Source: Atribacteraceae bacterium (GTDB lineage: Bacteria; Atribacterota; Atribacteria; Atribacterales; Atribacteraceae). From it: DNA of 41,583 bases. Shown piece by piece: positions 8,082-41,343 of this stretch. Position numbers and translations under genes: made by a program. Location: the NCBI GenBank assembly GCA_035477455.1, contig DATIKP010000039.1:1-41583 (forward strand), read 5' to 3'. The notes below the pieces were generated by a model, which worked only from the letters and a program-made list of their open reading frames with translations, was not told where the DNA came from and searched no databases. The stretch's first letter is position 1; the number at the start of each line of letters is the position of its first letter.

Positions 8082-8099
8082 TTGGCAAGAAAATTCATC
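8082..8099 (+). promoter_or_regulatory. TTGGCAAG-type element (candidate sigma-54-like promoter) before the second chemoreceptor
   Basis: TTGGCAAGAAAATTCATC lies 61 nt before the TTG start of the receptor. It matches 36514-36531, upstream of flgB, at 16 of 18 positions. TTGGCA resembles a sigma-54 -24 element, but the canonical GC of the -12 element is replaced. The role is inferred from the pair and from the divergent sigma-54 in this window. Confidence 0.35.
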
Positions 8100-20982: not shown

Positions 20983-21009
20983 TAAAGTTTCCGCTCGTTT
21001 GGCCGATAA
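20983..21009 (+). promoter_or_regulatory. Sigma-28 (FliA) promoter of the flagellin gene
   Basis: TAAAGTTT (20983-20990), 11 nt, GCCGATAA (21002-21009). This is an exact match to the enterobacterial sigma-28 consensus including spacing. Transcription should start about 21016, giving a leader of about 210 nt. An 8-bp inverted repeat (GGAGAAAG 20937-20944, CTTTCTCC 20972-20979) sits immediately upstream of the -35 box. Confidence 0.95.
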
Positions 21010-21228: not shown

Positions 21229-23259
21229 ATGGGTCTGCGTATCAATCAGAACATGATGGCGCTCAACGCGCATCGTAACCTCGTGTCCACCAACAAAGCC
21301 CTCTCCCGCTCACTCGAAAGACTCTCTTCGGGTCTGCGCATCAACAGAGCCGCCGATGATGCCGCGGGATTGGCCATTTCGGAGAAAATGAGGGCTCAGG
21401 TACAAGGCCTGGGCCAGGCCATGCGTAACGCCGAAGACGGCATCTCCCTCATCCAGACCGCCGAAGGCGCGCTCAACGAAGTTCACTCCATCCTCCAACG
21501 CATGCGGGTGTTGTCCGTCCAGGCGGCCAACGACACCCTGACCTCCAGCGACCGGGTGGAAATCCAGAAGGAAATCAACCAGCTCAGGGTCGAGATCGAC
21601 CGCATTGGCAATACCACCGAGTTCAACACCAAGCAGCTTCTCGATGGGACCACCGCGGCTCTGGCCTCGACCGATAGACTGTCGACGGTTGTTTTTATGC
21701 GCGACGGAATGAGAGTCATTGACCAGTTCGGTCAGAAGGCTGTCGGTGGCGGAAACTACCGCATCGATATCCAGGCAACTCCCGGTGCTGCTCAAGTGAT
21801 GATGACCGACATCATGAGGGTCATGCACGCGGAGAATGTAAGGAATGTTCCCGGAACCGGGGCAAACGTGAGCATGGTACAGAGGTTCAATGTAGTGGGT
21901 GCCGCTGGAGCAGCGATATCTGAGATTAACATTGAACTTACCGCTGCCACTGCTACAACAACAGCTACCACTGTTACTTGGTCTGCAGCCGGCACTATAA
22001 CCGTTCAGTTAGCTAGGGATGCGGCAGGGGCCGTTACCGCAACCACCCAGGATGTTTACAACGCATTGGCTGCAACTGCCGCTAATGTTTCTGTTCAGTC
22101 GCCGACCGGGGCAGGCCCTGTAGATATGGCTTTTAATGAGGTTTTCAACTTCAGACTGGGCGATGGGACCGTTGTGGCCCAAGAAGGATTGACTACCGTT
22201 GCCAATCAAATCGGCAGTTTCGTCGGTGATGTAGCTAACTTTTCTTCGGAGCTGCGCAACATCGACCGTTTTTGGGATGCCAGCGGGAACTTCCTGCTCC
22301 AAAACCCACAAACCATAACTCTTATCCAGGGCAATGGAAGGGAAGCCTCGATTACCCTGTTCAGCTCAGACACTGTTCAATCGGTGATCGACAAGCTCAA
22401 TGTAGCTATCGGAGTTGGCCTGGAACAGAATCAGGATATTGGGACCGCCAGAGTCACTAATTATGTAAGCTACGTGAGTCCCCACCAGACGGCTGCCATA
22501 ACAGATCAAGGATTTATGTCGGTTCCGGGTAACTTTGTCATCCAGACCGCGGTGACCGGAAATGACGGAGAGTTGAACTTTCTCGGGGACGAAGACCTGA
22601 TCAAGGCGCTCAGCCTCACCACCGTTCAGCAATCAAGAGAAAATACTTTTAGTATCGATGTCTTTGACGCCCACGATCCGACCAGAATCGTAGCTTCCAA
22701 TGTGGAAATATCCGGAAACCGCCTGATCGGACTTGTCCACTCCAGCGTCGACGTGGAGTTCGCCTCCAATAGCGGTCTTAGCGTAGCTTGGTCAGCCGCT
22801 TCAAGCTCATGGGTGTTCACGGGTGGGACAGCCAACCAAACCACTACTTTCGTCCACCTGGCTGACAATACCCAGGTCTTCCAGATCGGGGCCAATCCCT
22901 TGCAGGACGTGGGAGCGGCCATCGGTGACATGCGGGCTCGTTCCCTGGGGGTCCACAATGTACTGGTCACCACGCGTGACCTGGCCAACCGGGCGATCAG
23001 CCAGGTTGACCAGGCCGTTGCCCGAGTCTCCGGTGAACGTTCCAAGCTCGGTGCCCTGCAAAACCGGCTGGAACATACCATCTCTAACCTCGGCGTGAGC
23101 AGCGAAAACTTGGCCGCCGCCGAGGCCCGGATCCGCGATGTGGATATGGCCGAAGAGATGATGGCCTTCACCCGCGCGCAGATTCTCCTCCAGGCCGGCA
23201 CCGCGATGCTGGCCCAGGCCAATACCATTCCGCAGACCGTTCTGCAGCTCCTGCGGTAG
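21229..23259 (+). CDS. fliC: Flagellin
   Basis: A 676-aa filament subunit. The N-terminal D0/D1 region (residues 1-140, from MGLRINQNMMALNAHRNLVS through FNTKQLLDG) and the C-terminal D1/D0 region (about 575-676, ending QANTIPQTVLQLLR) are canonical. They form the helical core secreted through the flagellar export apparatus. The middle, about residues 150-560, is a large Thr/Ala/Val-rich beta insert making this flagellin longer than the common 270-500 aa. It has its own sigma-28 promoter, a strong ribosome site and its own terminator, consistent with very high expression. FliS, its chaperone, is encoded at 25802. Confidence 0.97.
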   Translation: MGLRINQNMMALNAHRNLVSTNKALSRSLERLSSGLRINRAADDAAGLAISEKMRAQVQGLGQAMRNAEDGISLIQTAEGALNEVHSILQRMRVLSVQAANDTLTSSDRVEIQKEINQLRVEIDRIGNTTEFNTKQLLDGTTAALASTDRLSTVVFMRDGMRVIDQFGQKAVGGGNYRIDIQATPGAAQVMMTDIMRVMHAENVRNVPGTGANVSMVQRFNVVGAAGAAISEINIELTAATATTTATTVTWSAAGTITVQLARDAAGAVTATTQDVYNALAATAANVSVQSPTGAGPVDMAFNEVFNFRLGDGTVVAQEGLTTVANQIGSFVGDVANFSSELRNIDRFWDASGNFLLQNPQTITLIQGNGREASITLFSSDTVQSVIDKLNVAIGVGLEQNQDIGTARVTNYVSYVSPHQTAAITDQGFMSVPGNFVIQTAVTGNDGELNFLGDEDLIKALSLTTVQQSRENTFSIDVFDAHDPTRIVASNVEISGNRLIGLVHSSVDVEFASNSGLSVAWSAASSSWVFTGGTANQTTTFVHLADNTQVFQIGANPLQDVGAAIGDMRARSLGVHNVLVTTRDLANRAISQVDQAVARVSGERSKLGALQNRLEHTISNLGVSSENLAAAEARIRDVDMAEEMMAFTRAQILLQAGTAMLAQANTIPQTVLQLLR

Positions 23260-23640: not shown

Positions 23641-23730
23641 AAATTGTCGTTACGGCGTGACAAAAAACGAGGATAAACCGAAAGAATTTTGTCGCTCTTC
23701 CTCGCTTCCTCCTCAAAGGGGTGAGAATGA

Positions 23731-24105
23731 ATGAATGTTCAACCGGTATTGAAGGCGGCGGTTAGCGTGAATAACGCCGCCGTGGGCCAAAAGCGTGAGT
23801 TTTCGGAGATCAAGCCACCACGCGGTGAGGAGAAGGCGGCTATAGTCACAGAGGTGTCCGGTCGGGAGAGTCGGGAAATTCCGGAGGAAAAGGTCGCCGA
23901 GGTGGCCCGGGTTCTCAACCAGGTGCTGGCGATCCTGGATATCGAGGCCCGTTTTTCGGTGCACGAAAAGAGCCGGGAGATCATGGTCACGCTACTCAAC
24001 CGGGACACCAAGGAAGTGATCCGCCAGATTCCCCCGGAAAAAGTGCTGGATATGCTGGCCCAGTTGAAAGAGCTGGTGGGAATACTGTTTGACGAGGTGA
24101 TTTGA
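23731..24105 (+). CDS. flaG: FlaG family flagellar protein
   Basis: 124 aa. The C-terminal two thirds (about residues 50-122) form the FlaG domain: VLNQVLAILDIEARFSVHEK, then VTLLNRDTKEVIRQIPPEKV. The N terminus is variable, as usual. FlaG proteins affect filament length; the mechanism is unsettled. AAAGGGG precedes the ATG. Its stop overlaps the fliD start by one base (TGATG). Confidence 0.9.
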   Translation: MNVQPVLKAAVSVNNAAVGQKREFSEIKPPRGEEKAAIVTEVSGRESREIPEEKVAEVARVLNQVLAILDIEARFSVHEKSREIMVTLLNRDTKEVIRQIPPEKVLDMLAQLKELVGILFDEVI

Positions 24106-25481: not shown

Positions 25482-25506
25482 CAATGGGTGGATGGGTAGA
25501 TGGGGA

Positions 25507-25740
25507 GACATGAGACGATCAGCCGTATCATTTCCGAACAATATTGCCGAAAGGGTAGCGAGAGCCTCCGGGAAAGAATATGTTCAGTTTACCTATATTG
25601 TCCCGGGAGCGCTCTCGGAATTGAAAACTCAACATCTGATTGCCAGGGGTTCGGTCTTTGTTGACGATGATGATGTGGCCAACAGCATTCTTAGCCCGAG
25701 AAAGAAAACTTTAAGCTTTCTCAGGTCGTTTAAAAACGAT
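25507..25740 (+). pseudogene. Remnant of a four-helix-bundle (S23/Avd-like) gene, copy 2
   Basis: MRRSAVSFPNNIAERVARAS, then GKEYVQF and PGALSELKTQHLIA, align with the family core (RRSAVSIPSNIAEG.GR.S.KEF..F..IARGSLAELETQL). The first helix of about 40 residues is absent, and after about 25650 the frame departs from the family and runs into fliS. It is the second relic of this family in the flagellar region, lying between fliD and fliS. A short G-rich direct repeat (GGTGGATGG, GGTAGATGG) precedes it. Confidence 0.6.
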
Positions 25741-25801
25741 CAAAAAACCAATAGATTTAATGAATTGAATGAAGCGGTCACCAGAAAGGAGAACATCAGA
25801 A

Positions 25802-26218
25802 ATGAATGCCTACAATGGGTTGATGACTCGTTCGTACCAGCGAAACGCGGTGGATACCGGATCGCCCCTGCGGCTGATTATCATGTTGTATGACGGTGCG
25901 ATCCGGTTTTTTCGTCTGGCGGAGAAGGCCCGCCAGGACGGAAATGCTGAACAGGTTCGGGAGCATATTTTCAAAGCGGAGAAAATTATTTTCGAGTTGA
26001 TGGCCTCTTTGAATATCGAGGAGGGTGGGGAGATCGCCGCCGGTCTGTTCCGGCTTTATCAATTCATGGTTGATCAGTGCAGTCATGTGCATGAGGAGAA
26101 CGGAGCGGAGGCTTTGGCCAATATCCTCAAAATACTGGTCGGCTTGCGAGCATCTTGGGTAGAACTGGAAAAGGCGCCGCAAGTTTTTGAGCCTCAGCCG
26201 GTGAACGTCAGTGGATGA
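25802..26218 (+). CDS. fliS: Flagellin export chaperone FliS
   Basis: 138 aa, slightly longer than usual. The FliS signature is intact: AYNGLMTRSYQRNAVDTGSP, LIIMLYDGAIRFFRLAEKA, and the helix with EKIIFELMASLNIEEGGEIA. It binds flagellin's C terminus in the cytoplasm before export. AAGGAG lies about 11 nt before the ATG at 25802; an in-frame start at 25769 lies in the upstream relic. Its end overlaps the next gene by 8 bp. Confidence 0.94.
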   Translation: MNAYNGLMTRSYQRNAVDTGSPLRLIIMLYDGAIRFFRLAEKARQDGNAEQVREHIFKAEKIIFELMASLNIEEGGEIAAGLFRLYQFMVDQCSHVHEENGAEALANILKILVGLRASWVELEKAPQVFEPQPVNVSG

Positions 26219-26841: not shown

Positions 26842-28191
26842 GTGACTGTTGCCAAAGTTCTGGTGGCTGATGACGAAAAGTACATGGCTGAGATGCTCTG
26901 TGAGATCCTCGAGGAAGAGGGGATGCTCGTGGAGACCGCCGCCCATGGCCGGGAGGCGCTGGAAAAATTCCGCAAATTTGACTTCGACCTGGTTCTCCTG
27001 GACCTCAGAATGCCGGAAATGAGTGGGCTGGAGGTCCTCCAGCAACTCAAGAAGGATGACCCCGACATCCCGGTGATAGTGATCACTGCGTATGGATCCG
27101 TCGACAACGCCGTGGAGGCGCTCAAGATCGGAGCGTATGATTTCGTTTCCAAGCCTTTCAAGATCGAAGAGCTGAAGAACGTCGTTTCCAAGGCTCTGGA
27201 GCTCGAAAGCTTGCGGCGGGAACGGGAATATCTCCGGGAAGAAATGCGGGAGGAATTCCAGTTCGAGGGGGTAGTCGGGGAATCACCGGCGATGCAGGAA
27301 GTGATGAAAGTGGCCAAGCTTGTGGCCAGGACCGGGGCTTCGGTTCTGATTTATGGGGAGAGCGGGACCGGTAAGGAATTGCTGGCCCGTTCGGTCCACA
27401 ATCAAAGCGAGCGTCGGGACAAACCGTTCGTCGTGGTCAATTGTGGAGCGATCACTGAAACACTTCTGGAAAGCGAGCTGTTCGGACACGAGAAAGGATC
27501 TTTTACCGGGGCGCACAGCCGGAAGTTGGGAAAATTCGAATTAGCCGAAGGCGGGACGGTGCTTCTGGACGAGATCGGGGAGATGAGTCCGGCCATGCAG
27601 GTGAAACTTCTCCGGGTGCTCCAGGAGAAAAGCTTCGAACGGGTGGGTGGAACCCAGTTGATCCGGGTGGATGTGCGGATTATTGCCGCGACCAACCGGG
27701 ACCTGAGTAAAGCCATGCAGGAGAACAGCTTCCGGGAAGACCTCTATTATCGGTTGAACGTAATGCCCATTGATTTACCGCCGCTGCGGGACCGCAAGGA
27801 GGACATCCCGGTTTTGTGTGAGTTTATCCTGAGAAAACATGCCAAGGTCCTCCACAAAAAAGTCAAAGGGATTTCTCCCCAGACCATGAGATTATTGAAA
27901 AAATATCATTGGCCGGGGAACATCCGTGAACTGGACAACGTCCTGGAACGAGCCCTGATCCTGACCCAGGACGAGACCGTCAAGATCGAAGACCTTTGGC
28001 TCTTCCGCGAGCAGGGCCGAGCCCAGAAATTCAAGCTGTTACAGGACATGGAAAAAGAATATGTCGCCCGGGTCCTCAATGCGGTGGAAGGGAGCCGAGA
28101 GAAAGCAGCCCTGATCCTGGGTATCAGCGAGACAGCATTGAATCAGCTTGCTGGGGAGAACAACACGGGAGAAAAAGGAAAAAAACTGTAA
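26842..28191 (+). CDS. Sigma-54-dependent response regulator, NtrC/FlgR type
   Basis: 449 aa. A receiver domain (1-120, phosphoacceptor Asp54 in LLDLRMPEM) is followed by an AAA+ domain (about 142-370) with Walker A GESGTGKE (172-179), the sigma-54 contact loop GSFTGA (219-224) and Walker B LLDEIGE (241-247). The C-terminal Fis-like region starts normally (SREKAALILGIS) but then reads ETALNQLAGENN instead of the usual recognition helix, so DNA binding may be weak. Start is GTG. Its place behind the filament genes and the sigma-54 gene at 35117 suggest an FlgR-like role. Confidence 0.93.
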   Translation: MTVAKVLVADDEKYMAEMLCEILEEEGMLVETAAHGREALEKFRKFDFDLVLLDLRMPEMSGLEVLQQLKKDDPDIPVIVITAYGSVDNAVEALKIGAYDFVSKPFKIEELKNVVSKALELESLRREREYLREEMREEFQFEGVVGESPAMQEVMKVAKLVARTGASVLIYGESGTGKELLARSVHNQSERRDKPFVVVNCGAITETLLESELFGHEKGSFTGAHSRKLGKFELAEGGTVLLDEIGEMSPAMQVKLLRVLQEKSFERVGGTQLIRVDVRIIAATNRDLSKAMQENSFREDLYYRLNVMPIDLPPLRDRKEDIPVLCEFILRKHAKVLHKKVKGISPQTMRLLKKYHWPGNIRELDNVLERALILTQDETVKIEDLWLFREQGRAQKFKLLQDMEKEYVARVLNAVEGSREKAALILGISETALNQLAGENNTGEKGKKL

Positions 28192-28462: not shown

Positions 28463-28813
28463 TACTTATTGTAGTAGAATCATAATTTTTATCTGGTAAT
28501 CTCCGGATCCTCAGCCGCCAGGCGTTCCTCTCCGGTTTTCCCTCACTGGGCGGGTTTTTGGCAACGATGTTTATCTCCTCCCCTTTGGTGAGCCGAGTAA
28601 AACCACCAACCCCGAAACTCTTATCCCGGAACTGTACGGCTCAGTGAATTTCATGAGCACTGCCAGGTGGTGTCGGGAGGGAAAAACGGAAGGCCGTTAG
28701 GTTGTAGGCTGAGAAACCAAACCGGAGTTTTATCATATTGGGGGGTCCTCTGAGCGCCTGAGCGCCTGAGGAACTGAGTCACTATAGCCTGCTGAAACAG
28801 GGGGATTATTCTA
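28463..28813. other. Intergenic stretch with tandem 8-mers, no recognised gene
   Basis: It holds TGAGCGCC twice in tandem (28751-28766) followed by TGAG-GAAC-TGAG, and TGAGCCG/CGGCTCA complements about 45 nt apart (about 28590-28645). On the minus strand an open frame without a start codon runs from here into the MITE-like element and shows no recognised similarity. No riboswitch core is recognised. Confidence 0.4.
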
Positions 28814-29185
28814 ATGAAACTATGCCGAAACGGGATTGTTCTTTGTCTGGCCCTTGCCGGTGTTCTTGTGGGAGTGGCTCTTTTGGCCGGGTGTGTCCGC
28901 TGGCAGGAGAAAACGGTGGGTTTTTATGTCTATGCCATGGAACCTTTCTCGGTGGAAGGTTATGTCTTACCCCTTTTCGGAGCCCGGGTGGCGATTGCGG
29001 GCGGAGTTTCCCTGACGTTGTACACCAATTCCCACGGTAAGGCAGTCACGCAGCTCCCTCCGGGCACCTACCAGGTGACGGCGTCCCATTCCGGTTATTC
29101 CCCGGTTAACCGGGTGATTACTCTGTATACCTTGGATTTGGGCCCCCTATACTATGATTTTCAGCTGGCTCCTACGGGAGGGTAG
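28814..29185 (+). CDS. Small lipoprotein with PEGA/carboxypeptidase-regulatory-like domain
   Basis: 123 aa. A signal peptide ends at the lipobox LAGC (Cys27). The mature part is one beta-sandwich of the carboxypeptidase-regulatory or PEGA kind: FSVEGYVLPLFGARVAIAGG, then LPPGTYQVTASHSGYSPVNR. Such domains are extracytoplasmic and often involved in surface or glycan contacts. It is followed 2 bp later by a second lipoprotein with the same fold, so the two form a unit. No specific function can be assigned. Confidence 0.78.
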   Translation: MKLCRNGIVLCLALAGVLVGVALLAGCVRWQEKTVGFYVYAMEPFSVEGYVLPLFGARVAIAGGVSLTLYTNSHGKAVTQLPPGTYQVTASHSGYSPVNRVITLYTLDLGPLYYDFQLAPTGG

Positions 29186-29187
29186 TG

Positions 29188-29802
29188 ATGCCAAGCCGGA
29201 TTTTCATTGTTCAGGCCCTTTTGATTGGTTTTGTTCTTGTCGGGTGCGGCGGGTCGAACCTCTCCCAACTTCCCCCGGTCCGTCCCATGGTCAGCGTATC
29301 CGGCCGGATCACCGACGCCTCGAGCGGTGAAAGGCTTGGCGGAGCTTTGGTTAAGGTCCGGGACTATCCAACTCGTCGGGACCTAAGCGCCGTTGACGGC
29401 TCTTTCCTGTTACGCATGGTCCCTACCGGCCGGCAAATTGTCCTGGTCACCCTGTTCGGCTACGACCCTTATGAAACTGTGGTGGAGCTCGAGCCAAATC
29501 TCGATCTTACACTCACTGTCGCGATGGTTCCGCAACGGGGGGCCTTGCTGGGATACGTGTTCGATGAAACGGGCAATCCCCTGGGTGGAGCTCGGGTGAC
29601 GGTCGGGGGGTTGTTCGTGAGCACAACCAGCGACGATGGGCGTTTCTCCTTTGTAGAGCTACCGGTTGGCGGTCATCTGATCGTCGTCGAAAAAACTGGG
29701 TATCTCCCACATACGGGAAGTGTCACTATCGCCAAGGGGGAATATGCTGTTTTGGAAATCACCCTTTTATTCCCCTTGGGAGGAGGAACCGGAAATAACT
29801 GA
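29188..29802 (+). CDS. Lipoprotein with two carboxypeptidase-regulatory-like domains
   Basis: 204 aa. The lipobox LVGC places the acylated Cys at residue 20. Two beta-sandwich repeats follow: about 36-110 (VSGRITDASSGERLGGALVK, DGSFLLRMVPTGRQIV) and about 118-195 (GYVFDETGNPLGGARVTVGG, DGRFSFVELPVGGHLIV). The second shows the classic D-G-x-F-x-x-L-P-x-G pattern. The ATG at 29188 has GGGAGGG about 6 nt upstream; a GTG at 29185 is an alternative. Probably works with the neighbouring lipoprotein at the cell surface. Confidence 0.8.
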   Translation: MPSRIFIVQALLIGFVLVGCGGSNLSQLPPVRPMVSVSGRITDASSGERLGGALVKVRDYPTRRDLSAVDGSFLLRMVPTGRQIVLVTLFGYDPYETVVELEPNLDLTLTVAMVPQRGALLGYVFDETGNPLGGARVTVGGLFVSTTSDDGRFSFVELPVGGHLIVVEKTGYLPHTGSVTIAKGEYAVLEITLLFPLGGGTGNN

Positions 29803-31150: not shown

Positions 31151-33178
31151 GTGCCGGACCAGTTTGATATCAATAAATATGTCGGGGTTTTCCTGGAAGA
31201 GGCCGATGAACATATCGAACGGCTTGAGGAAAACCTGGTGCAATTGGAAAAGGAACCAGGTAATCGAGAGCTCGTACAGGCGGCTTTCCGATCGTTTCAT
31301 ACCATCAAGGGCTCTTCGGGTTCCATGGGTTTTGCGCGAATGATGGAACTGGCTCACATAATGGAGAACGTTTTGGAAGGTGTGCGGGGCGGGCGGCTTG
31401 AGCCAGCCCCCCTGCTTATTGATGCGCTTCTGCGCGGTGTAGACCTCCTGAAAATCCTGCGGAACGATATATCCTTCCTCGGCCAAGAACCGGATGTCGA
31501 CATCGGGACCGTGGTTAGCCTCCTGAAATCTTTTTTGTCTGAAAAACCCGGGGCCAATCCTTCGCCACCCATGGACTCAAAACTACGGCCGGAAAGACTG
31601 GCGGAGACTACGGAAGGTTCTTTCACAAGAAAAAAGGATCTGAATTTACAGGTCATCCTGAACGCAGAGTGCTCCATGAAGGGAGTGCGGGCCTACCTGG
31701 TGATTAACCGCCTGCAAGAAGCAGGAGTGACGGCGGTCTCTACCAATCCCTCCCTTGCGGACCTTGAAACTGAAAACTTCGGCCAGGAATTCACGGTCAT
31801 AATCCAAACCGAGAAAGGTGAAGAAAATATCCGTCGGATAGTCGAATCGATCGCCGAAATCGACCGGGTTGAATTTCTGCAGGATATTGACCAAGAAGCG
31901 CTTCAGAAATCGGATGTCCCCCAGAAGGTGGTCGAAAAGCGGGGAGAGGAAGAAAAACTGTCCCGCAACCTGAAAAAAACCGTTCGGGTTGACGTCGAGA
32001 GGCTTGATGCTCTCCTTAACTTGGTCGGGGAGCTGGTCATTGACCGCGCCCGGCTGGAGGACACCATTCAGAAGTTTTCCGACGCACATTCGAACAACGG
32101 GCTTCAAGAGATTCTGACCGAAACCACCACTCATATCGGTCGGGTGACCAACGAGCTTCAAATGGAAATTATGAAAGCCCGCATGTTGCCGCTGTCCGAG
32201 GTTTTTAACCGGTTTCCCCGGATGGTCCGAGATCTTGCCCGCCAGTCGGGGAAGGACGTTGATTTTATAGTGGAGGGCGAAGAAACCGAGCTCGATCGCT
32301 CGCTCCTGGAGGAAATCACCGATCCTTTGATACATCTTCTGCGTAACGCGGTCGACCACGGGATCGAGGAGCGTGAGGAACGCCTGTCCCGGGGCAAGCC
32401 GGAACGGGGTACGATTCTCCTCAAGGCCTACCAGGAGGAGAACTCGGTGGTGATCTTGATCCGGGACGATGGAAAGGGGATGTCTCTCGAGCGTTTGCGG
32501 TCCCGTATGCTCCAGTTGAGCCTGTTCACTGGTGATGAAGTGGCGCAAATGACTGACCAGGAAGTGTTGGAGATCATTTTCACCCCCGGATTTTCTACCA
32601 GTACGGTTGTGACGGACGTTTCCGGCCGGGGCGTAGGCATGGATATCGTGAAAAAAAATATCGAACGGGTAAATGGGCAGGTTTTACTGGAAAGCGACGA
32701 GGGTAAAGGGACCTCCTTCTATCTTCGACTGCCCCTGACGTTGGCCATTGTCCGGGCGCTTCTCATCAAAGCCGATCATTCGATCTATGCGCTCCCCTTG
32801 AACGCTGTGGTGGAAATTGAAAAGGTGGAACGGAAACAGGCCTGCTGGGTCAACAAAGTCCTCGTATCGGTTTTCCGGGATCAGACCTTGCCGCTCTTAC
32901 GTTTGGACGATCTCTTGCGCTCCCGGAAGGCGGAATTCGTTGAAAGTGCGCCAGTTCCGGAAACCCTCTATGTCATAGTAGTGAAAATTGCGCGGAACAT
33001 GGCCGGTCTGGTGGTGGATGAGATTATCGGTGAACAGGAGATCGTCATCAAATCGTTGGGTTCTTTCGTTGGAGACATCAGGGGATTAGGCGGAGCAACC
33101 ATTCTCGGTGATGGCAGGATTTCCTTGATATTGGATGTTGCCAGCTTGCTCTGGAAATTTTCTCACGTAGGAGGTTAG
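31151..33178 (+). CDS. cheA: Chemotaxis histidine kinase CheA
   Basis: 675 aa. The HPt domain carries the phosphorylated His50 in FRSFHTIKGSSGSMGF. A CheY-binding P2-like domain spans about residues 160-240, and a dimerisation domain follows (RVDVERLDALLNLVGELVID). The HATPase domain has LLRNAVDHGIEE, DDGKGMS and GRGVGMDIVKKN, and a C-terminal CheW-like domain couples it to receptors. It autophosphorylates under control of the chemoreceptors and passes phosphate to CheY, encoded 7 bp downstream. Start is GTG with GGAGG about 8 nt upstream. Confidence 0.97.
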   Translation: MPDQFDINKYVGVFLEEADEHIERLEENLVQLEKEPGNRELVQAAFRSFHTIKGSSGSMGFARMMELAHIMENVLEGVRGGRLEPAPLLIDALLRGVDLLKILRNDISFLGQEPDVDIGTVVSLLKSFLSEKPGANPSPPMDSKLRPERLAETTEGSFTRKKDLNLQVILNAECSMKGVRAYLVINRLQEAGVTAVSTNPSLADLETENFGQEFTVIIQTEKGEENIRRIVESIAEIDRVEFLQDIDQEALQKSDVPQKVVEKRGEEEKLSRNLKKTVRVDVERLDALLNLVGELVIDRARLEDTIQKFSDAHSNNGLQEILTETTTHIGRVTNELQMEIMKARMLPLSEVFNRFPRMVRDLARQSGKDVDFIVEGEETELDRSLLEEITDPLIHLLRNAVDHGIEEREERLSRGKPERGTILLKAYQEENSVVILIRDDGKGMSLERLRSRMLQLSLFTGDEVAQMTDQEVLEIIFTPGFSTSTVVTDVSGRGVGMDIVKKNIERVNGQVLLESDEGKGTSFYLRLPLTLAIVRALLIKADHSIYALPLNAVVEIEKVERKQACWVNKVLVSVFRDQTLPLLRLDDLLRSRKAEFVESAPVPETLYVIVVKIARNMAGLVVDEIIGEQEIVIKSLGSFVGDIRGLGGATILGDGRISLILDVASLLWKFSHVGG

Positions 33179-33184
33179 CGGTTT

Positions 33185-33550
33185 ATGGCTGGAAAAATCA
33201 TGATCGTTGACGATGCCGCCTTTATGAGGATGATGCTCAAGGACATTATCACCAAGAATGGCTTTGAAGTGGTTGCCGAAGCCGCCAACGGCCGGGAAGC
33301 GGTAATGAAGTTTGACGAACTGAAGCCGGATTTGGTGACCATGGATATCACGATGCCGGAAATGGACGGAATCAATGCCACCAAGGAAATCAGGTCGAAA
33401 AATCCTGAGGCGAAAATCATCATGTGCAGCGCTATGGGACAGCAGGCCATGGTGGTGGACGCCATCCAGGCGGGAGCCAAGGATTTTGTGGTCAAACCGT
33501 TCAAACCGGACCGGGTTCTCGAAGCGATAAAAAAGGTTCTGGGGTTATGA
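33185..33550 (+). CDS. cheY: Chemotaxis response regulator CheY
   Basis: A 121-aa single receiver domain. Acidic pocket DD at residues 9-10, phosphoacceptor Asp54 (VTMDITMPEM), and a conserved Lys in FVVKPF. The compact form MAGKIMIVDDAAFMRMMLKD is typical of thermophile and Firmicutes-like CheY. Phospho-CheY binds the flagellar switch. The cheA stop, GGAGG and the start lie within 25 bp, so the two genes are co-translated. Confidence 0.96.
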   Translation: MAGKIMIVDDAAFMRMMLKDIITKNGFEVVAEAANGREAVMKFDELKPDLVTMDITMPEMDGINATKEIRSKNPEAKIIMCSAMGQQAMVVDAIQAGAKDFVVKPFKPDRVLEAIKKVLGL

Positions 33551-33593
33551 AATCGACCAGTTGGATGAAGACGGTCTAGGTAAATCGCGGGTA

Positions 33594-35117
33594 ATGACCA
33601 GGCTGGACAGCGATTTTGTACGGTATTTTCTCAGGAATCTTCGTCGTTTCCTGAGCGCTTCCTTTGTCGTTCTGGTGAGTGGAGAGAAGAGGGTGCCGGT
33701 TTGTTACAGCGGGCTCCACCGGTATCGCGCCTCCTTGCGTAATATTCTCTCGATGCTTCCCCCCGGCAAAAGGGAAGAAACCCTGCGCCTGACGGTGGCC
33801 AGGGATCGAGCACTTACCGTCCGGGTGCTTTATTTAGGCGAAAGCGGATTGTTGTTGGTCGGGAACAGTGAAAACGAGGATCACGAATTTCTCAAAATTC
33901 CGTTGCCCGGACGGGAACGCCGGGTCCTCGAGCGGTTTCTGATAAAAATTGGAGAGGAAAGCGGCTTGGACGTAGAGTCCGCCCTGTTTTCCTATAGTTT
34001 TTTCAGCCGGATTCCCTTCGGATTGTTGGTGATGGATTTCCAGGGAAAAATCATCGAATGGAACGAGAAAATGGCCATACTCAGCGGTTGGTCTAGACAG
34101 CAGGTCCTGGGCCACCGGTATTCTGAGTACCTGCTTTGTGACGTGCCCCTGGAAAGCCTGTTGCGTGGTCTATTGTTCGGCGACAGCCTCTTCCTGCGGA
34201 ATTATCGATTTATGAGCCGGCACCAGGAAGAAATTCTGATGAATGTTCATCTCTTTTTGTGGGAACGGGATGAACGGTTTCCTCGGGTGGTCTTCGTGGT
34301 CGAAGATGTCACCGAGAAAGCCAGGCTGGGGGAAAATGTCCGCCAGATTGAAAAACTCTCGACCCTGGGTCGTTTTATTTCCGGAATCGCCCACGAAATC
34401 AACAATCCACTGGCGGTCATCTACGGGTACTCCCAGATGCTTCTGCAAAGCTTGGATCGGGAAACGGCGGACTGCCGGGAGTGCAAGACGGTGCGACGTG
34501 GTCTGGAACGTATCGAAGACGAAGCTGAGCACTGCGGAAAACTCATCCAGAATCTGATCGATTTTTCCAAGCCCACCTCTCTCCATCGGGAGCTGACCGA
34601 CATCAACCTACTGGTTAAGGAAAGCCTGAATCTGATGGATATATACCTACTGCAGGGGAGGAAGACGGAATTCAGCCTGGCTCCTGATCTCCCCGAAATC
34701 ATGGTCGATCGCCTCAAATTGAAGCAGGTTTTTATCAACCTGGCCAAAAACGCCTTCGAAGCCATGACCGGCGAAACCGGACGGATGCTCCTGTCCACAC
34801 GGCTTCGGACCCTCTCCTCCCTTCCCGGTAAAGATCTGTCTTTGGTTTTGAGCGCGACGGAAAATCGCCGTCAGGACGGTCTCCGCTTCGTCCAGATTAT
34901 TTTCTCCGACAATGGCGAAGGTATTTCCCGGGACAAGATACCGCACATATTCGAACCCTTTTATACCACGCGTGACCGGGGAACCGGCCTGGGTCTTTCC
35001 ATCTGTTACGGCATTGTGAAAACGCACGGGGGATGGATCGAGATCGATTCTCCGTGCGAAAACGAGCGGGGGACCACGGTAACGATTTTTCTTCCTGTGG
35101 AGGCGAAGACATCCTGA
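33594..35117 (+). CDS. PAS-domain sensor histidine kinase, NtrB/FlgS-like
   Basis: 507 aa from the ATG at 33594 (518 aa from a TTG at 33561; neither has a good ribosome site). It lacks TM segments, so it is probably cytoplasmic. A variable N-terminal region is followed by a PAS domain (about 145-250, GLLVMDFQGKIIEWNEKM). The dimerisation/phosphoacceptor helix has His267 in SGIAHEINNPLAV, and the ATPase domain shows NLAKNAFEAM, DNGEGIS and GTGLGLSICYGI. Soluble PAS kinases of this kind activate NtrC-type regulators. The gene overlaps rpoN by one base (TGATG), supporting an FlgS-like role with the regulator at 26842. Confidence 0.9.
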   Translation: MTRLDSDFVRYFLRNLRRFLSASFVVLVSGEKRVPVCYSGLHRYRASLRNILSMLPPGKREETLRLTVARDRALTVRVLYLGESGLLLVGNSENEDHEFLKIPLPGRERRVLERFLIKIGEESGLDVESALFSYSFFSRIPFGLLVMDFQGKIIEWNEKMAILSGWSRQQVLGHRYSEYLLCDVPLESLLRGLLFGDSLFLRNYRFMSRHQEEILMNVHLFLWERDERFPRVVFVVEDVTEKARLGENVRQIEKLSTLGRFISGIAHEINNPLAVIYGYSQMLLQSLDRETADCRECKTVRRGLERIEDEAEHCGKLIQNLIDFSKPTSLHRELTDINLLVKESLNLMDIYLLQGRKTEFSLAPDLPEIMVDRLKLKQVFINLAKNAFEAMTGETGRMLLSTRLRTLSSLPGKDLSLVLSATENRRQDGLRFVQIIFSDNGEGISRDKIPHIFEPFYTTRDRGTGLGLSICYGIVKTHGGWIEIDSPCENERGTTVTIFLPVEAKTS

Positions 35118-36457
35118 TGTCCAGGCTCAGGCAGGTGATGAGAACCGTTACCCGGCAGCAGATGTTACCCAAGATGGTTGTGGCGGGAGAGATGATGGCC
35201 ATGAACCTGGTTGAACTCGAACAGAAACTCCAGGGGATCCTCGAAGAGAACCCGGCTCTTGACTTCAGTGACGATGGTTTGTGTTTCTTCTGCGGCGGCC
35301 GTCTCGGACGACACCATGAACAATGTCCCAACTGTGGCCGCAACCTTCGCGCTGGAAGCCAGAACGAGATGCCCATTGAAGACGTTCCCTCGATTCATCA
35401 GATGCGCAACTGGAAAAACCTTCTCCAGGAGGAGATCGAGTCCTTTGTCGAACTTGTGCCGGAGGACATCAACCTGTTCCGCTTATTGATCATTAACCTT
35501 GACCGGGAAGGGTTTCTGCGGGTCGACCTGGACCAGTTGGCCCTAATTGCCCAAGAAACGGAAGGCCGCATCCGGGATTTGATCGATAGAATTCGCGCAG
35601 CCGGATTTCCCGGTTTTGCCTGCCGGGACGCCGTGGAATTTCTGGTTGTCCAGCTCCGGGACCTGGGAACGCTCGATTCGTCGCATTCCTTTGATGCGAT
35701 CAGGAAGGAAATACGGAGAAGCCCCCAGTGGTTCGAAAAGCTGGTGGAAACGGTGCGGGACCGGCTATCCTACTCTCCCGCTCAGCTGTTCGAAGCCTCC
35801 TTGGGCCAGGAGCGGGACATTGTCTCCAGTGAGGAGGAATACATACGCTGGGACGCGGAAATCTGGGAAAATGAAGAAGGTCGTTTTGATGTCGCCCTGC
35901 TTTCCTCATCCCTCCTGGACGTGAATATCAACCGGGAGTTTGTTCGGATCGTGAACCAAGAGACGGCAAATTTTTCGGAAAAAGATCGGTTGTATTGTCA
36001 GGAAAAACTACGCGAGGCGAAAGAAGTGATATCCTGTCTGAGTTACCGGCACAGGCTGCTCCTGTCGGTCCTGCAGTATATCGTGAGCCAGGAACAGGAT
36101 TATTTCCGCCATGGCTTTCGCTATTACGTCCCGCTCAAACAGCGGGAAATCGCCGAGGCGCTGGGGGTGTCCAACAGTGGCATCTGTCAGATCCTGAAAA
36201 ACAAAGCCGTGCGTTTCCCGGAGGGAACGGTGCGGGACATCAAATTTTTTTTCAATACCTCCTACCCGGTGAAGGAAATGATCCGGATTCTCCTTGCCCG
36301 CGAGAACCCCCGGCACCCCTTTTCCGACCGAAAACTCCAGATGGAGCTCAAAGAAAACGGCTTTGCCCTCTCGCGACGCAGCATCACCCTCTACCGTGAA
36401 GATATGGGCGTCTTGCCTTCCTTCCTGAGAAGAAGAATGTGGGCTTCAACGCACTGA
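35117..36457 (+). CDS. rpoN: Divergent sigma-54 factor with zinc-ribbon-like insert
   Basis: 446 aa. N-terminal region I is shortened and poor in Gln, but ends in the recognisable LEQKLQGILEENPALDF. It is followed by a four-cysteine zinc-ribbon-like motif, CxxC at Cys56/Cys59 and CPNC at Cys70/Cys73, which ordinary sigma-54 lacks. The core-binding region spans about 95-300. The central HTH (PLKQREIAEALGVSNSGICQ, then NKAVRFPEGTVRDIKFFF) and a C-terminal DNA-binding domain follow. The RpoN box is LSRRSITLYRED (418-429), diverged from the usual ARRTVAKYRE. A start at 35117 overlaps the kinase stop by one base. Expected to serve the flagellar genes around it. Confidence 0.85.
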   Translation: MSRLRQVMRTVTRQQMLPKMVVAGEMMAMNLVELEQKLQGILEENPALDFSDDGLCFFCGGRLGRHHEQCPNCGRNLRAGSQNEMPIEDVPSIHQMRNWKNLLQEEIESFVELVPEDINLFRLLIINLDREGFLRVDLDQLALIAQETEGRIRDLIDRIRAAGFPGFACRDAVEFLVVQLRDLGTLDSSHSFDAIRKEIRRSPQWFEKLVETVRDRLSYSPAQLFEASLGQERDIVSSEEEYIRWDAEIWENEEGRFDVALLSSSLLDVNINREFVRIVNQETANFSEKDRLYCQEKLREAKEVISCLSYRHRLLLSVLQYIVSQEQDYFRHGFRYYVPLKQREIAEALGVSNSGICQILKNKAVRFPEGTVRDIKFFFNTSYPVKEMIRILLARENPRHPFSDRKLQMELKENGFALSRRSITLYREDMGVLPSFLRRRMWASTH

Positions 36458-36765
36458 AGCGGTTCGCTGTGACGGTCAATACTCCTCTCTGATTTTTTCT
36501 GATTGTCCTCCTTTTGGCAAGAAATTTTATCCCTATCCCCAATTAGGTGCAGGCAACAGGCCTTGGACTAACCCGACTAAGAGGAAAGCGCTTGTCGTCC
36601 CGCAGGGGAGGTATTCATCGGGGAACGTTGTAGGACATTGTTTGACCCCTGATTCTGGATCATGCTGGATCATGACCGGGGGGGAGGTCAAGTGCGGGTG
36701 TGTGATGATCAGCGTGGTGGCTGGTACTGGCAACGCATGCCCACCATGAAAGGGAGGTGAAATCG
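36458..36765. other. Intergenic region upstream of flgB with tandem 10-mer
   Basis: 308 nt without a gene. It carries CTGGATCATG twice in tandem (36655-36674), a TTGACC that could be a -35 (36642) but without a good -10, and the TTGGCAAG-type element listed separately. A pair of GG and GC dinucleotides near 36710-36730 has the wrong spacing for a standard sigma-54 site. Confidence 0.5.
36514..36531 (+). promoter_or_regulatory. TTGGCAAG-type element (candidate sigma-54-like promoter) before flgB
   Basis: TTGGCAAGAAATTTTATC matches 8082-8099 at 16 of 18 positions. A -24-like TTGGCA is followed at standard distance by TTTATC instead of TTGCAT. It lies 235 nt before the flgB start and just after rpoN, so it could drive the basal-body operon. 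Confidence 0.35.
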
Positions 36766-37176
36766 GTGACCGGGAAAATAGTCCATAATAGAATCATCAA
36801 CCTTTTGGAGCGGGGCTTGGATGCCTCGGCCTTCCGGCATGGGATCCTGGCCGGTAATGTGTCCAACGTGGAAACGCCGGGATATCGTCGGTTCGACATG
36901 GATTTTACCGGGTACCTGGAAGCCGGGATTCAAAAGCAAACAGCGAAGCTTCCGCTTGTGTTCACTCATGAAAACCATTTCCGCGAAGGGCCATACCGGA
37001 TCAAGGGTCTCGAAAAAGAAATGGAAGAATTTGCCGTCCGGCAGGACGCCTCAGGGGTTGATATCGAAAAAGAAATGACTTTGGTTCTGCAGAACGCCCT
37101 CTATCATCAAATTCTGTCCCGTATAATTTCCGATAGGCTAAGCGGGCTGCGCAACGTTATCCGGGAGGTCCGATAA
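36766..37176 (+). CDS. flgB: Flagellar basal-body rod protein FlgB
   Basis: 136 aa. The family N terminus LERGLDASAFRHGILAGNVS leads to NVETPGYRRFDMDF; the C-terminal helix (LVLQNALYHQILSRIISDRL) completes the rod fold. The GTG at 36766 has AGGGAGG 8 nt upstream; a GTG at 36757 is inside that ribosome site and less likely. First gene of the rod/rotor operon, 2 bp before flgC. Exported and assembled as the proximal rod. Confidence 0.93.
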   Translation: MTGKIVHNRIINLLERGLDASAFRHGILAGNVSNVETPGYRRFDMDFTGYLEAGIQKQTAKLPLVFTHENHFREGPYRIKGLEKEMEEFAVRQDASGVDIEKEMTLVLQNALYHQILSRIISDRLSGLRNVIREVR

Positions 37177-37178
37177 CC

Positions 37179-37574
37179 ATGAAACTTTTCCGTCATCTTG
37201 ATATCAGCGCCTCCGCCCTCACTGCCGGACGCTTTCGCATGGATGTTATCGCCACCAACATCGCCAACGCGGAGTCCACCCGTACGGAGAACGGCGAGGT
37301 TTTCCGCCGCAGACAGGTCGTCTTCCAGCCGATCAGGGAAACCGGCGGAGTAAAAGTGGTACGGGTCATGGAAGATCAGGTCACACCTACCCGCTTTGTC
37401 TACCAGCCCGGCCATCCCGACGCGAATCCCAGCGGGTATGTCGAATTTCCCAATGTGATTATGGTCAATGAAATGGTGGACCTGATGGCCGCTACCCGAG
37501 CCTATGAAGCCAATATCACCGTATTGAATGCATCCCGGGAAATCATCAATGCCAGCCTGGGCATTGGAAGGTAA
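37179..37574 (+). CDS. flgC: Flagellar basal-body rod protein FlgC
   Basis: 131 aa of normal length. The N terminus FRHLDISASALTAGRFRMDV is followed by ATNIANAESTRTENGEVFRR, and the C-terminal YVEFPNVIMVNEMVDLMAAT block and ending are typical. Proximal rod subunit acting with FlgB and FliE. GGAGG lies upstream inside the end of flgB. A 15-bp inverted repeat separates it from fliE. Confidence 0.96.
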   Translation: MKLFRHLDISASALTAGRFRMDVIATNIANAESTRTENGEVFRRRQVVFQPIRETGGVKVVRVMEDQVTPTRFVYQPGHPDANPSGYVEFPNVIMVNEMVDLMAATRAYEANITVLNASREIINASLGIGR

Positions 37575-37582
37575 ATCGGTGA

Positions 37583-37638
37583 ACCGTGATCAGTGATCGG
37601 CGTTCAATCAATTGCCTTGCTCCATCACTGATCACGGT
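37583..37638. repeat. 15-bp perfect inverted repeat between flgC and fliE
   Basis: ACCGTGATCAGTGAT (37583-37597) and ATCACTGATCACGGT (37624-37638) around a 26-nt loop. There is no T tract. Part of it (GATCGGCGTTCA) recurs with one mismatch at about 23369, upstream of the first four-helix-bundle relic. It may be an mRNA-processing hairpin or a small dispersed repeat. Confidence 0.7.
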
Positions 37639-37659
37639 ACTTTACAGGAGAGTGGATCG

Positions 37660-37962
37660 ATGATTATTCGTGATTTGACGTCGATATATAACGGATTGAA
37701 GTCTTTGCCCGGAACGGAACAGGAGAAAGTTGGACCGGGACCGTCTGGTTTCGGTAACGCGTTGACCGACGCCCTGCAGGAGGTCAATGAACTGCAGCAT
37801 GCGGCGAATAAGGAGATCGAGAGCGTGGTCCTGGGAACGGAGCAAAACGTCCACCAGGCGCTTATCGCCATGGAGAAAGCCGGTATCGCTATGCAGTTGA
37901 CGATCCAAATACGAAACAGAGTGGTTGAAGCTTATCAGGAAATCATGAGAATACAGGTATAG
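37660..37962 (+). CDS. fliE: Flagellar hook-basal body complex protein FliE
   Basis: 100 aa. The C-terminal block VHQALIAMEKAGIAMQLTIQ, followed by IRNRVVEAYQEIMRIQV, is the FliE signature; ALTDALQEVNELQH precedes it. It joins the MS ring to the rod. The ATG at 37660 has CAGGAG about 9 nt upstream. An in-frame ATG at 37612 lies in the inverted-repeat loop and is unlikely. fliF starts 5 bp after the stop. Confidence 0.95.
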   Translation: MIIRDLTSIYNGLKSLPGTEQEKVGPGPSGFGNALTDALQEVNELQHAANKEIESVVLGTEQNVHQALIAMEKAGIAMQLTIQIRNRVVEAYQEIMRIQV

Positions 37963-37967
37963 ATAGA

Positions 37968-39566
37968 ATGCAAAGACCATTTTCCGATCTCCAGAGCCAG
38001 CTTAAAAAAGTCTGGGGCGGGATGAGCCAGGGCCAGAAGATCGTCTTCCTAATGATCAGCGCAACCCTGATTGCAGGATTGATTACTGTGGTAATTTATT
38101 CCGGCCGGCCTGACTTTGCCGCCATTTACCAGCAGTTGGGTCCGGAAGAGGCTGGGCAAGTGGTGGATAAGCTTCGGGAACTCAATATTCCCTACCGGAT
38201 TTCCGCGGGAGGGACCCGTATCGAGGTTCCCCAAGATCAGGTCCATGCGGTGCGCATGCGCATGGCCCAGGAGGGCATCCCTCCCCGGGGAACCGGCTTC
38301 GAACTATTTGACCGGGGCACTTTTGGGTTGACCAATTTCTTGCAGCGGGTCAATTACCAGCGAGGACTCCAGGGAGAACTGGAACGAACCATCATGCAGC
38401 TCGAGGGAGTGGAGAGCGCCCGGGTTCACTTGGTCATGCCCGAAGACGGGCTATTCCTGGATGAACGCCGAGAACCTACCGCTTCTGTGGTACTCCGGAT
38501 GCGTCCAACTGCAACGTTAGGGGAACCGCAAACCGAAGCTATCACTAGCCTGGTGGCCAACAGCGTCGAGGGTCTCAATCCGAACCGGGTGACCATTGTC
38601 GACGACCGGGGGAATATCCTGGCTACAGGCACGGATGAAGCCAGTTGGACCTCGCTTTCCGGTTTTTCGGCCATGCAACTGGCCATGAAGAGAGATTATG
38701 AAGACGGGCTGACCCGCCGGATCCAAAGCATGCTCGAAAGCGTCCTGGGGTACCGGCGGGCAGTCGTGAGGGTCAGTGCCGACATTGATTTCGAACGCCG
38801 GGAGGGAGAAAAGGAAATTTTCGAACCAATCACCGGTACCGAGGGGATTCCCCGCAGCATTCAGGAGACCGAAGAACGCTATGAGGGCGGTGGCCAGTTT
38901 CCGGGAGGCGTCCCCGGTATCGGATCGAATATTCCCGTGTATGGCACCGAAGAACCTCCCCAGGAACACGGTACCTACTCCCGCCGGGATTCCACGGTCA
39001 ACTTCGAGATCAACCGGATCACCGAGCGCTTTGCAGTCAGTCCGGGCCGCCTCAATCGACTGTCCGTGGCGGTCCTGGTTGACGATACCTTACTTCCCGA
39101 AGACCTGGTCAGGGTGAATGAGGCGGTCCGGGCCGCCTCCGGCGCCGATCCGGCCCGTGGTGATGTAGTCATCGTAGAGGCGGTGCCTTTCAACCCCGAG
39201 ATCTGGGAAGAAGAACGGCGGGCACTAGAAACCCGCCGCTTGTTGGAATTCATCGAGCTTTTTGCCAAATACGGAATTCTGGCTGCCCTGCTTATTCTCA
39301 TGTTTATCATGGGCCGTCGCATTCTGGCTGCGGCGACGGCGACACCCGAAGAAGTTTTCGCTGAGTTCTATGAAGACGATAAAGAATACGGGGAAGCAGG
39401 GGAGGGCGAGGAAGAATTGGTCCCGGTCCGGCTTGGAGATCTGTCGCGGGAAGAGAAGATGCGCATGGAACTCCAGGGACACATGGAAAGCGAGATCAAG
39501 AAGCTCTTGCAGAGCAACCCCGAAGATGGGGCAAAGCTGATCCGAAACTGGTTAGTCGAGGAGTAG
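37968..39566 (+). CDS. fliF: Flagellar MS-ring protein FliF
   Basis: 532 aa, normal length. An N-terminal TM (about residues 24-43, ISATLIAGLITVVIYSG) is followed by ring-building domains with YQQLGPEEAGQVVDKLRELN, GLTNFLQRVNYQRGLQGELE and VRVSADIDFERREGEKE. A second TM lies at about 428-450. The cytoplasmic tail (MRMELQGHMESEIKKLLQSN) binds FliG. The MS ring is the assembly base of the flagellum. fliG starts 3 bp later. Confidence 0.97.
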   Translation: MQRPFSDLQSQLKKVWGGMSQGQKIVFLMISATLIAGLITVVIYSGRPDFAAIYQQLGPEEAGQVVDKLRELNIPYRISAGGTRIEVPQDQVHAVRMRMAQEGIPPRGTGFELFDRGTFGLTNFLQRVNYQRGLQGELERTIMQLEGVESARVHLVMPEDGLFLDERREPTASVVLRMRPTATLGEPQTEAITSLVANSVEGLNPNRVTIVDDRGNILATGTDEASWTSLSGFSAMQLAMKRDYEDGLTRRIQSMLESVLGYRRAVVRVSADIDFERREGEKEIFEPITGTEGIPRSIQETEERYEGGGQFPGGVPGIGSNIPVYGTEEPPQEHGTYSRRDSTVNFEINRITERFAVSPGRLNRLSVAVLVDDTLLPEDLVRVNEAVRAASGADPARGDVVIVEAVPFNPEIWEEERRALETRRLLEFIELFAKYGILAALLILMFIMGRRILAAATATPEEVFAEFYEDDKEYGEAGEGEEELVPVRLGDLSREEKMRMELQGHMESEIKKLLQSNPEDGAKLIRNWLVEE

Positions 39567-39569
39567 GCG

Positions 39570-40589
39570 ATGGCGATTATCCCCCGTAAGGAGTTCACCG
39601 GAAGGCAGAAGGCGGCGATACTTTTGGTCAGCCTCGGTTCGGATGTCTCCGCGCAAATTCTGAAGCGTCTCTCGGAAGACGAGATTGAGAATCTCACCCT
39701 GGAAGTAGCCACACTGGAAAAAGTGCCCCCCGAGATCCGGGAATCGGTGATAAACGAATTTTACCATATGGCCGTTGCCCAACAATTCATATCCCAGGGA
39801 GGGATCGATTTCGCCAGGCAGCTCTTGGAAAAAGCGCTGGGCGCCCACAAGGCCCAGGAAATCATTCACCGCCTTTCCTCAAATCTCCAGGTAACCCCCT
39901 TTGAAACGCTGCGCCGCGCGGATGCTTTCCAGGTTTTGAACTATGTCCAGAACGAACACCCCCAGACCATTGCCCTGATTCTTTCGTATCTCAAGCCTGA
40001 CCAGTCGGCCCTCCTTTTGGGGAGCCTCTCGGAAGTCGTGCGGGGAGAGGTGGCCATGCGGGTGGCGACGATGGATCGCACCTCTCCGGAAGTGATCCGG
40101 GATATCGAAACGGTGCTCGAACGTAAAATCGCCAACTTCTTGACCCGGGACTTTACCCGGGTCGGCGGCAAGAAGAAACTGGTGGAAATCCTGAACAAGA
40201 GCGACCGGGGAACTGAAAAAAGCATTTTGGAGGCCCTCGAAGAACGCAATCCCGAACTTGCCGAAGAAATCAAGTCCGAGATGTTTGTCTTCGAAGACAT
40301 CGTGGTTTTGGATGATCGTTCCATCCAGCTGGTTTTACGCCAGGTGGACACGAAAGATCTCTCCCTGGCGCTCAAGGGGGTCAGCGGGGACGTGGGCGAC
40401 AAGATTTACCGCAATATGTCCCAAAGGGCGGCGCAGATGCTCAAGGAGGACATGGAATATATGGGTCCGGTACGGGCCCGTTCGGTCAACGAAGCACAGC
40501 AAAAGATCGTGAACGTGATCCGTCGTCTCGAGGAAACCGGAGAGATCATTATTTCCCGCGGTGCCGGAGAGGATGAAATCATTGCATAA
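39570..40589 (+). CDS. fliG: Flagellar motor switch protein FliG
   Basis: 339 aa. The N-terminal domain (TGRQKAAILLVSLGSDVSAQ), middle domain (EHPQTIALILSYLKPDQSA) and C-terminal torque domain (FVFEDIVVLDDRSIQLVLRQ, then MSQRAAQMLKEDMEYMGPVR) are all present. The charged torque helix residues are retained. It couples ion flow through MotAB to rotation and binds FliF and FliM. Its last 17 bp overlap fliH. Confidence 0.97.
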   Translation: MAIIPRKEFTGRQKAAILLVSLGSDVSAQILKRLSEDEIENLTLEVATLEKVPPEIRESVINEFYHMAVAQQFISQGGIDFARQLLEKALGAHKAQEIIHRLSSNLQVTPFETLRRADAFQVLNYVQNEHPQTIALILSYLKPDQSALLLGSLSEVVRGEVAMRVATMDRTSPEVIRDIETVLERKIANFLTRDFTRVGGKKKLVEILNKSDRGTEKSILEALEERNPELAEEIKSEMFVFEDIVVLDDRSIQLVLRQVDTKDLSLALKGVSGDVGDKIYRNMSQRAAQMLKEDMEYMGPVRARSVNEAQQKIVNVIRRLEETGEIIISRGAGEDEIIA

Positions 40590-41343
40590 AGTGTATAAAC
40601 TGGTCGACCTCCTTGAGCAAGCCGTGCGGGTGGGCGAACCTCTCGTTACAGACACCCTTGAGGACGAAACTGATCCAGGTGAGACCTTTTCACCGGATAA
40701 TGATGGCTCCCGGGAAAAAATACTTCGGGATCGTCGGGAAGCGATTTTAGAGGAAGCTCGCCGGGAACGGGACGCTATCCTCACCCAAGCCCGACAGGAG
40801 GCGGAGATCCTGGTAAAAGCGGCCTGTGAAGAGTGTGAATCGCTCCATGAAACTGCCCGGGAAGGGGGCCGGGAAACCGGTGTCCATGAAGGGCGGGAAT
40901 GGGTCAAGCAAGAATGGGAGCGAAAGGTCGCCCTTTTCGAACAGTGGTTCCAGACAATCCGGAAAAGCCGGGAAGAGCTTCTGGAGACCATCAGGGAACC
41001 ATTGATGGATTTGTGTGTCTTTATTGCCGAAAAAATTATCCAGCGGGAAGCGGAACGGGACCCCTTCATCATGCATATGATCAAGCGAGCTTTGGAGAAA
41101 CTCTCCCATCGGGAGCGGGTGGTAGTCCGCGTCAACCCGATGGAATACGTACTGGTCCGGGAATTGAAAGACGATCTTCTGGCCCGGGTGGACGGAATCG
41201 ATTTCCTGGAAATTCGGGAAGATAACCGGATAGAAGCCGGCGGCTGTCTGGTGGAGACGCTCTATGGCACTGTCGATGCCCGGATCAAAGACCAGTTGGA
41301 CATTATCCGGGAGATCCTCCGCGAGGCCATCCGCATTATCTAA
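40573..41343 (+). CDS. fliH: Flagellar assembly protein FliH
   Basis: 256 aa from the ATG at 40573 (a GTG at 40561 is in frame); GGAGAGG lies just upstream inside fliG. A long charged helix or coiled coil (about residues 40-125, EEARRERDAILTQARQEAEI) precedes the V-ATPase E-subunit-like C-terminal domain (about 140-250, DLCVFIAEKIIQREAERDPF, DNRIEAGGCLVET). FliH regulates the export ATPase FliI. fliI would be expected next but lies beyond the window; a MITE-like element comes first. Confidence 0.92.
   Translation: MKSLHKVYKLVDLLEQAVRVGEPLVTDTLEDETDPGETFSPDNDGSREKILRDRREAILEEARRERDAILTQARQEAEILVKAACEECESLHETAREGGRETGVHEGREWVKQEWERKVALFEQWFQTIRKSREELLETIREPLMDLCVFIAEKIIQREAERDPFIMHMIKRALEKLSHRERVVVRVNPMEYVLVRELKDDLLARVDGIDFLEIREDNRIEAGGCLVETLYGTVDARIKDQLDIIREILREAIRII

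Follow-up and report, generated by a model that had tools for sequence, protein, structure and literature searches.

Sigma-54 reads promoters whose -24/-12 consensus is regarded as nearly universal. The rpoN gene studied here, from a member of the OP9/Caldatribacterium order (Atribacterota), a group of heat-loving, uncultured bacteria, raises the question of whether a sigma-54 can come to read a different promoter element, and which part of the protein would be responsible. The gene lies at 35117..36457 of the window, i.e., the whole 41,583-nucleotide stretch of DNA that was analysed; all features given below are on the + strand. A sequence-only reading of this locus had proposed a flagellar specialist among sigma-54s that reads its promoters in an altered way, and had pointed to a zinc ribbon and a degenerate RpoN box as its distinguishing features.

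A divergent sigma-54 without a second copy

The 446-residue product of rpoN is a divergent sigma-54 with a putative zinc ribbon. Three Pfam models match over their cut-offs, namely AID (region I) at 1e-6, the core-binding domain at 4e-12 and the DNA-binding domain at 1.5e-28, and in a fold search sigma-54 chains are the sole matches at E<1e-3. The AlphaFold model of the whole protein has a mean pLDDT of 76.8. With the NCBIfam equivalog model rpoN_sigma (TIGR02395) it reaches 173 bits, short of the 277 bits required; by the NCBI threshold the protein is therefore a divergent sigma-54, and no equivalog. The open reading frame, its coordinates and the location of Cys56, Cys59, Cys70 and Cys73 between region I and the core-binding domain were confirmed as described in the earlier reading, and so was the absence of the usual Gln-rich run: region I (residues 1-52, 35117..35272, delimited by alignment) is of a 'PKM' type without QLQQ, with PKM where canonical proteins have PQLQQ.

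The possibility that an ordinary rpoN is encoded elsewhere was not borne out. No second gene was found in the host assembly (2.16 Mb, 96% complete), and the copy in the window is the sole sigma-54. Sigma-54 matches occur in 14 other genomes of the order, at ~39-55% identity. A search of a named contig collection with the single protein gave no matches, and an alignment-based search identified Candidatus Caldatribacterium and other OP9-type Atribacterota as close relatives. Sigma-54 is missing from most of the remaining members of the family to which the window belongs, and flagellin from nearly all of them. One such relative (G001, contig C212), otherwise non-flagellated, carries a broken flagellin relic, which suggests that flagella were lost in the family. 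In the phylogenetic tree, the OP9 proteins, those of the G125 phylum and G064, and one ribbon-free relative fall on one side of a 99% branch, and the proteins of the sister class of the phylum fall among canonical ones. The OP9 stem is very long, with 1.59 changes per site.

A four-cysteine ribbon directly after region I

The ribbon (residues 56-76, 35282..35344) has the pattern C56xxC59-x10-C70xxC73 and begins immediately C-terminal of region I, where it takes the place of the start of region II; lengths of this region were compared crudely, from the few rows parsed. The four cysteines are invariant in 13 aligned members of the OP9 order. Because these members are at 39-47% identity, the cysteines are not a chance occurrence. 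Taken alone, the ribbon segment gives sub-threshold matches to DZR and zinc-ribbon Pfam models. Short strands flank the knuckles in the AlphaFold model, and PDB matches to the isolated segment are mostly four-cysteine zinc ribbons or fingers (~1 A over 22-27 residues), none with a significant E-value.

A search of homologues for CxxC-x10-CxxC found the pattern throughout the OP9 order, i.e., in all homologues with a complete N-terminus (12 other genomes). The sister class within the phylum has ordinary sigma-54s that lack it, and it recurs in several other lineages. These include the G125 phylum, where one family has two ribbon paralogues and another has none, and the three-genome G064 phylum; a profile search of 386 genomes added further scattered cases (L339-L342). 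In the G125-phylum family with two ribbon RpoN paralogues (L230-L235, L247-L252), one is found beside an NtrC-type activator and the other in a chemotaxis/flagellar neighbourhood.

A search of the open-access literature found no paper on a zinc ribbon inside RpoN. The recurrent ribbon after region I seems to be a module that has not been described before, and it adjoins the segment of sigma-54 threaded by AAA+ activators. In the E. coli protein, region II starts with a flexible stretch, and what activators pull through and unfold is approximately helix 1 of region I, ~26 residues long (PMC10786286, PMC12054792). Our favoured guess, a weak one suggested by the position of the ribbon, is that it forms a compact, metal-clamped knot, which might halt threading past region I, or might dock on a partner, either RNA polymerase or the activator.

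rpoN is embedded in a flagellar and chemotaxis system

Two carboxypeptidase-regulatory-like genes (28814..29802) head the rpoN operon, which ends with cheA (31151..33178), a cheY-like response regulator gene (33185..33550), a PAS histidine kinase gene immediately 5' of rpoN (33561..35117), and rpoN itself. Downstream lies the flgB-flgC-fliE-fliF-fliG-fliH operon (36757..41343), in which flgB has no Pfam match and was identified from synteny and homology within the order. This arrangement, cheA-cheY-kinase-rpoN with flgBC-fliEFGH next in most cases, is conserved throughout the OP9 order. A gene for a methyl-accepting chemotaxis protein (MCP) is also found in the window (8161..10755).

The window also encodes an NtrC-type sigma-54 activator (26842..28191) with a GSFTGA loop and a degenerate or missing C-terminal DNA-binding domain. 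In 11 of 11 members of the order (the window and L124-L134), the activator keeps GAFTGA or GSFTGA, and the C-terminal DNA-binding helix is not recognisable. There is essentially one strong NtrC-type activator per flagellated genome, and none of that score in non-flagellated ones; sigma-54, this single activator and flagellin co-occur across the order. The PAS kinase is likely to be the partner of the activator, judging from gene content and order.

The flagellin gene (21229..23259) belongs to the class read by sigma-28, and not by the OP9 sigma-54. Its promoter was considered as sigma-54 dependent and ruled out: it is of the sigma-28 type, TAAAG-N15-CCGATAA (20983..21009). Across the order, a sigma-28 promoter of the form CTAAAGTTT-N11-CCGATA is conserved 5' of flagellin (L154-L164). 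Two PF05635 genes, encoding four-helix proteins of the 23S rRNA-intervening-sequence type (23306-23734 and 25492-25893), are located within the flagellin/FlaG/FliD/FliS cluster.

Predicted promoters with an altered -12 element

The element TTTTGGCA-N6-TT(T/C)ATC is common to the regions upstream of flgB and of the rpoN-terminated operon. TGGCA-N6-TT(T/C)ATC is present in 16 of 16 such regions across the order and TTGC in none of them. These 16 loci were picked by RpoN homology and are the sole set that we count as unbiased, other site tables being mixtures of pattern-chosen and homology-chosen sites. When no motif was preset, the best gapped dyads of two 4-mers were GGCA-N6-TTTA and its shifted versions, in 14/16 regions, compared with <=6 in shuffled sequences. 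The -24 TGGC and the fixed spacing of canonical promoters are thus found in all 16 regions; GG is separated from TA by 10 bases, the same as GG from GC in ordinary promoters. That is, the -24 half is intact, and the GC of the -12 half is replaced by TA.

In the window, variant sigma-54 promoters are predicted ahead of the flgB operon (TGGCA-N6-TTTATC, 36515..36531), ahead of the operon that ends with cheA-cheY-kinase-rpoN (28559..28575) and, by pattern scan, in the TTCATC form 78 bp 5' of the MCP gene (8083..8099). The rpoN operon itself seems to depend on a promoter of this class, which would make it autoregulated. In the genome as a whole, sites lie 5' of flgB, the rpoN operon, flhB, flgF and an MCP gene. 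In several genomes, flhB, rod genes of the flgF type, chemoreceptor genes and a pilin-like gene are likewise preceded by exact matches, at a distance of 33-95 bp. Of the six exact matches in G012, a complete genome, three lie 39-59 bp before flgB, flhB and flgF, for which a simple model gives a chance of ~1e-11.

Genome-wide counts of both promoter patterns were discarded as evidence. Non-flagellated relatives match as often as flagellated genomes, partly in repeats, and location alone separates the two; a reversed-pattern control is misleading because the reversed pattern contains CpG. In G021, of the same order, sites identical to the variant promoters of its congener G019 are present and neither rpoN nor flagellin was detected, possibly owing to an assembly gap. 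In several OP9 genomes the variant promoter also precedes a type IV pilin-like gene (L213, L262, L266, L268, L272, L280, L289), and the regulon may therefore exceed flagella and chemotaxis.

TGGCA-N6-TTTATC deviates from the -12 consensus and is predicted from sequence, and in principle a different regulator or a different sigma factor could bind there, in which case it would not be a sigma-54 promoter. We consider this quite improbable, since the site has the -24 TGGCA of sigma-54 promoters, with its second element at exactly their GG-N10 distance, and is neither a palindrome nor a -35/-10 pair. The sites lie mostly 36-85 bp ahead of start codons, the 16 upstream regions offer no TTGC in their place, and flagellin has a sigma-28 promoter of its own.

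The recognition helix, and not the ribbon, tracks the altered element

Residues were numbered as in E. coli by alignment with PDB 7qxi, the solved E. coli sigma-54. In this alignment, Gln358 in the recognition helix of the HTH (NSGICQILKNK, residues 353-363, 36173..36205) corresponds to Arg383, and Leu425 in the RpoN box (SRRSITLYRED, residues 419-429, 36371..36403) corresponds to Lys460. The canonical RpoN box is ARRTVxKYRE; compared with it, the OP9 box has RR, Y and R in place, and Lys460 is changed to Leu. The earlier description of this box as degenerate thus applies to K460, whereas R455, R456, Y461 and R462 are retained. All 90 canonical rows and all 25 ribbon/PK-type rows have Arg at position 383, where each of the 22 OP9 rows has Gln; at position 460, the same 115 rows have Lys and the 22 OP9 rows have Leu. 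The OP9 rows combine two collections and stand for ~13 genomes. R383Q is the most telling change of the protein, and was absent from the sequence-only reading.

In the cryo-EM structure of the E. coli closed complex, R455 and R456 contact the -24 CTGGC, and H377, S379 and R383 read the GC at -14/-13 (PMC9770992). Because both RpoN-box arginines are retained in OP9, a kept -24 and a changed -12 are what this structure predicts.

Gene order, co-occurrence and the altered -12 of the predicted promoters give good support, then, to the proposal of a sigma-54 specialised for flagella whose promoter reading is altered. That this alteration stems from the zinc ribbon together with the degeneracy of the RpoN box is, by contrast, very unlikely. 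Neither the ribbon nor K460L varies within the order that has the altered promoters. However, the ribbon recurs in lineages with ordinary DNA-binding residues: other ribbon-bearing proteins retain ESTVSR, and at L237, in another phylum, an RpoN with a ribbon, a PK-type region I and Arg383 is encoded amid a cheA-like and flgBC neighbourhood whose flgB promoter, TGGCACTCGAATTGCT, has the ordinary TTGC form. This combination uncouples the ribbon from the promoter change and implicates the HTH. We conclude that the ribbon is real, yet probably not the cause of the altered promoter reading. Nor does the RpoN box account for it; with R455/R456 kept, the -24 TGGC that adjoins this box is left as it is, and the E. 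coli residues named as readers of the -24 are R455/R456, not K460 (PMC9770992). The altered half is the -12, which tracks R383Q.

The strength of this link is limited by descent. The OP9 rows are related, so the joint change of helix and promoter counts as one evolutionary event; OP9 being a single lineage, the structure makes the link to R383Q strong but does not prove it, and other changes on the long stem branch could weigh as much.

A sigma-54 that decays towards loss of function with a relaxed HTH is barely credible: flagella and sigma-54 are lost in most other family members, with one flagellin relic, and the stem branch is long, but Gln, Leu and the four cysteines are invariant in ~13 genomes of four families at 39-48% identity, the promoters are conserved alongside sigma-54, and the domains are complete in nearly all rows.

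Discussion

We regard it as highly probable, on the basis of the sequence comparisons above, that this protein is the single sigma-54 of the OP9/Caldatribacterium order, dedicated to flagella and chemotaxis, which would recognise the -24 TGGC through R455/R456 and, through its Gln383-bearing HTH, the TA of TT(T/C)ATC at an unchanged spacing, the GC at -14/-13 being read no more. In the mechanism that we propose, the PAS kinase encoded beside rpoN would activate the one NtrC-type activator; the activator, which in this order has no usable DNA-binding domain, would pull region I through its ring; and RNA polymerase would open TGGCA-N6-TTTATC promoters at rpoN's own operon, flgB, flhB, flgF and receptor genes, with flagellin left to sigma-28. 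A bolder version, in which sigma-54 shifted throughout the order to an orthogonal GG-N10-TA class via R383Q and neighbouring changes, and in which the ribbon would be the mechanical stop of the activator, seems to us evenly balanced between right and wrong.

With the canonical sigma-54 of E. coli, Klebsiella and Aquifex, the OP9 protein shares region I, the core-binding domain, the long helix-HTH and the RR and YR of the RpoN domain; the promoters share the -24 TGGC and the spacing, and the activators are AAA+ proteins with a GAFTGA-type loop. It differs from them in R383Q, K460L, the absence of QLQQ, a ribbon in place of the N-terminal region II, and TT(T/C)ATC in place of TTGC. The ribbon RpoNs of the G125 phylum, the G064 phylum and L339-L342 also carry four cysteines in a ribbon that follows region I without a gap, and those of one phylum have a comparable cheA-rpoN-flgB neighbourhood, but they keep Arg383, have Lys460 in nearly all those checked, and have a TTGC flgB promoter where seen (L237).

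Another zinc ribbon tied to RpoN and flagella is that of HP0958/FlgZ, a Helicobacter protein that binds RpoN. The likeness is at the level of description, as HP0958/FlgZ is a separate, chaperone-like protein and the OP9 ribbon is a domain inside the sigma factor. A flagellar sigma-54 with a kinase, an NtrC-type activator and a sigma-28 flagellin is likewise known from RpoN2 of Rhodobacter sphaeroides and from the FlgS-FlgR-RpoN system of epsilon-proteobacteria, whose FlgR also has no DNA-binding domain. Rhodobacter uses one of four rpoN paralogues for flagella (PMC7277832), whereas in OP9 it is the only sigma-54 that would have been re-specified at -12.

The strongest result of this analysis is what appears to be a naturally re-specified -12 element of sigma-54, together with a matching change in the recognition helix. 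If the bolder version holds, we know of no earlier natural change in the core -12 dinucleotide specificity of sigma-54. Because genome surveys look for TTGC, the sigma-54 promoters of the OP9 order would escape them. The order would offer a natural experiment in which one HTH residue is tied to one promoter base pair, and possibly a ready-made orthogonal pair of sigma-54 and promoter.
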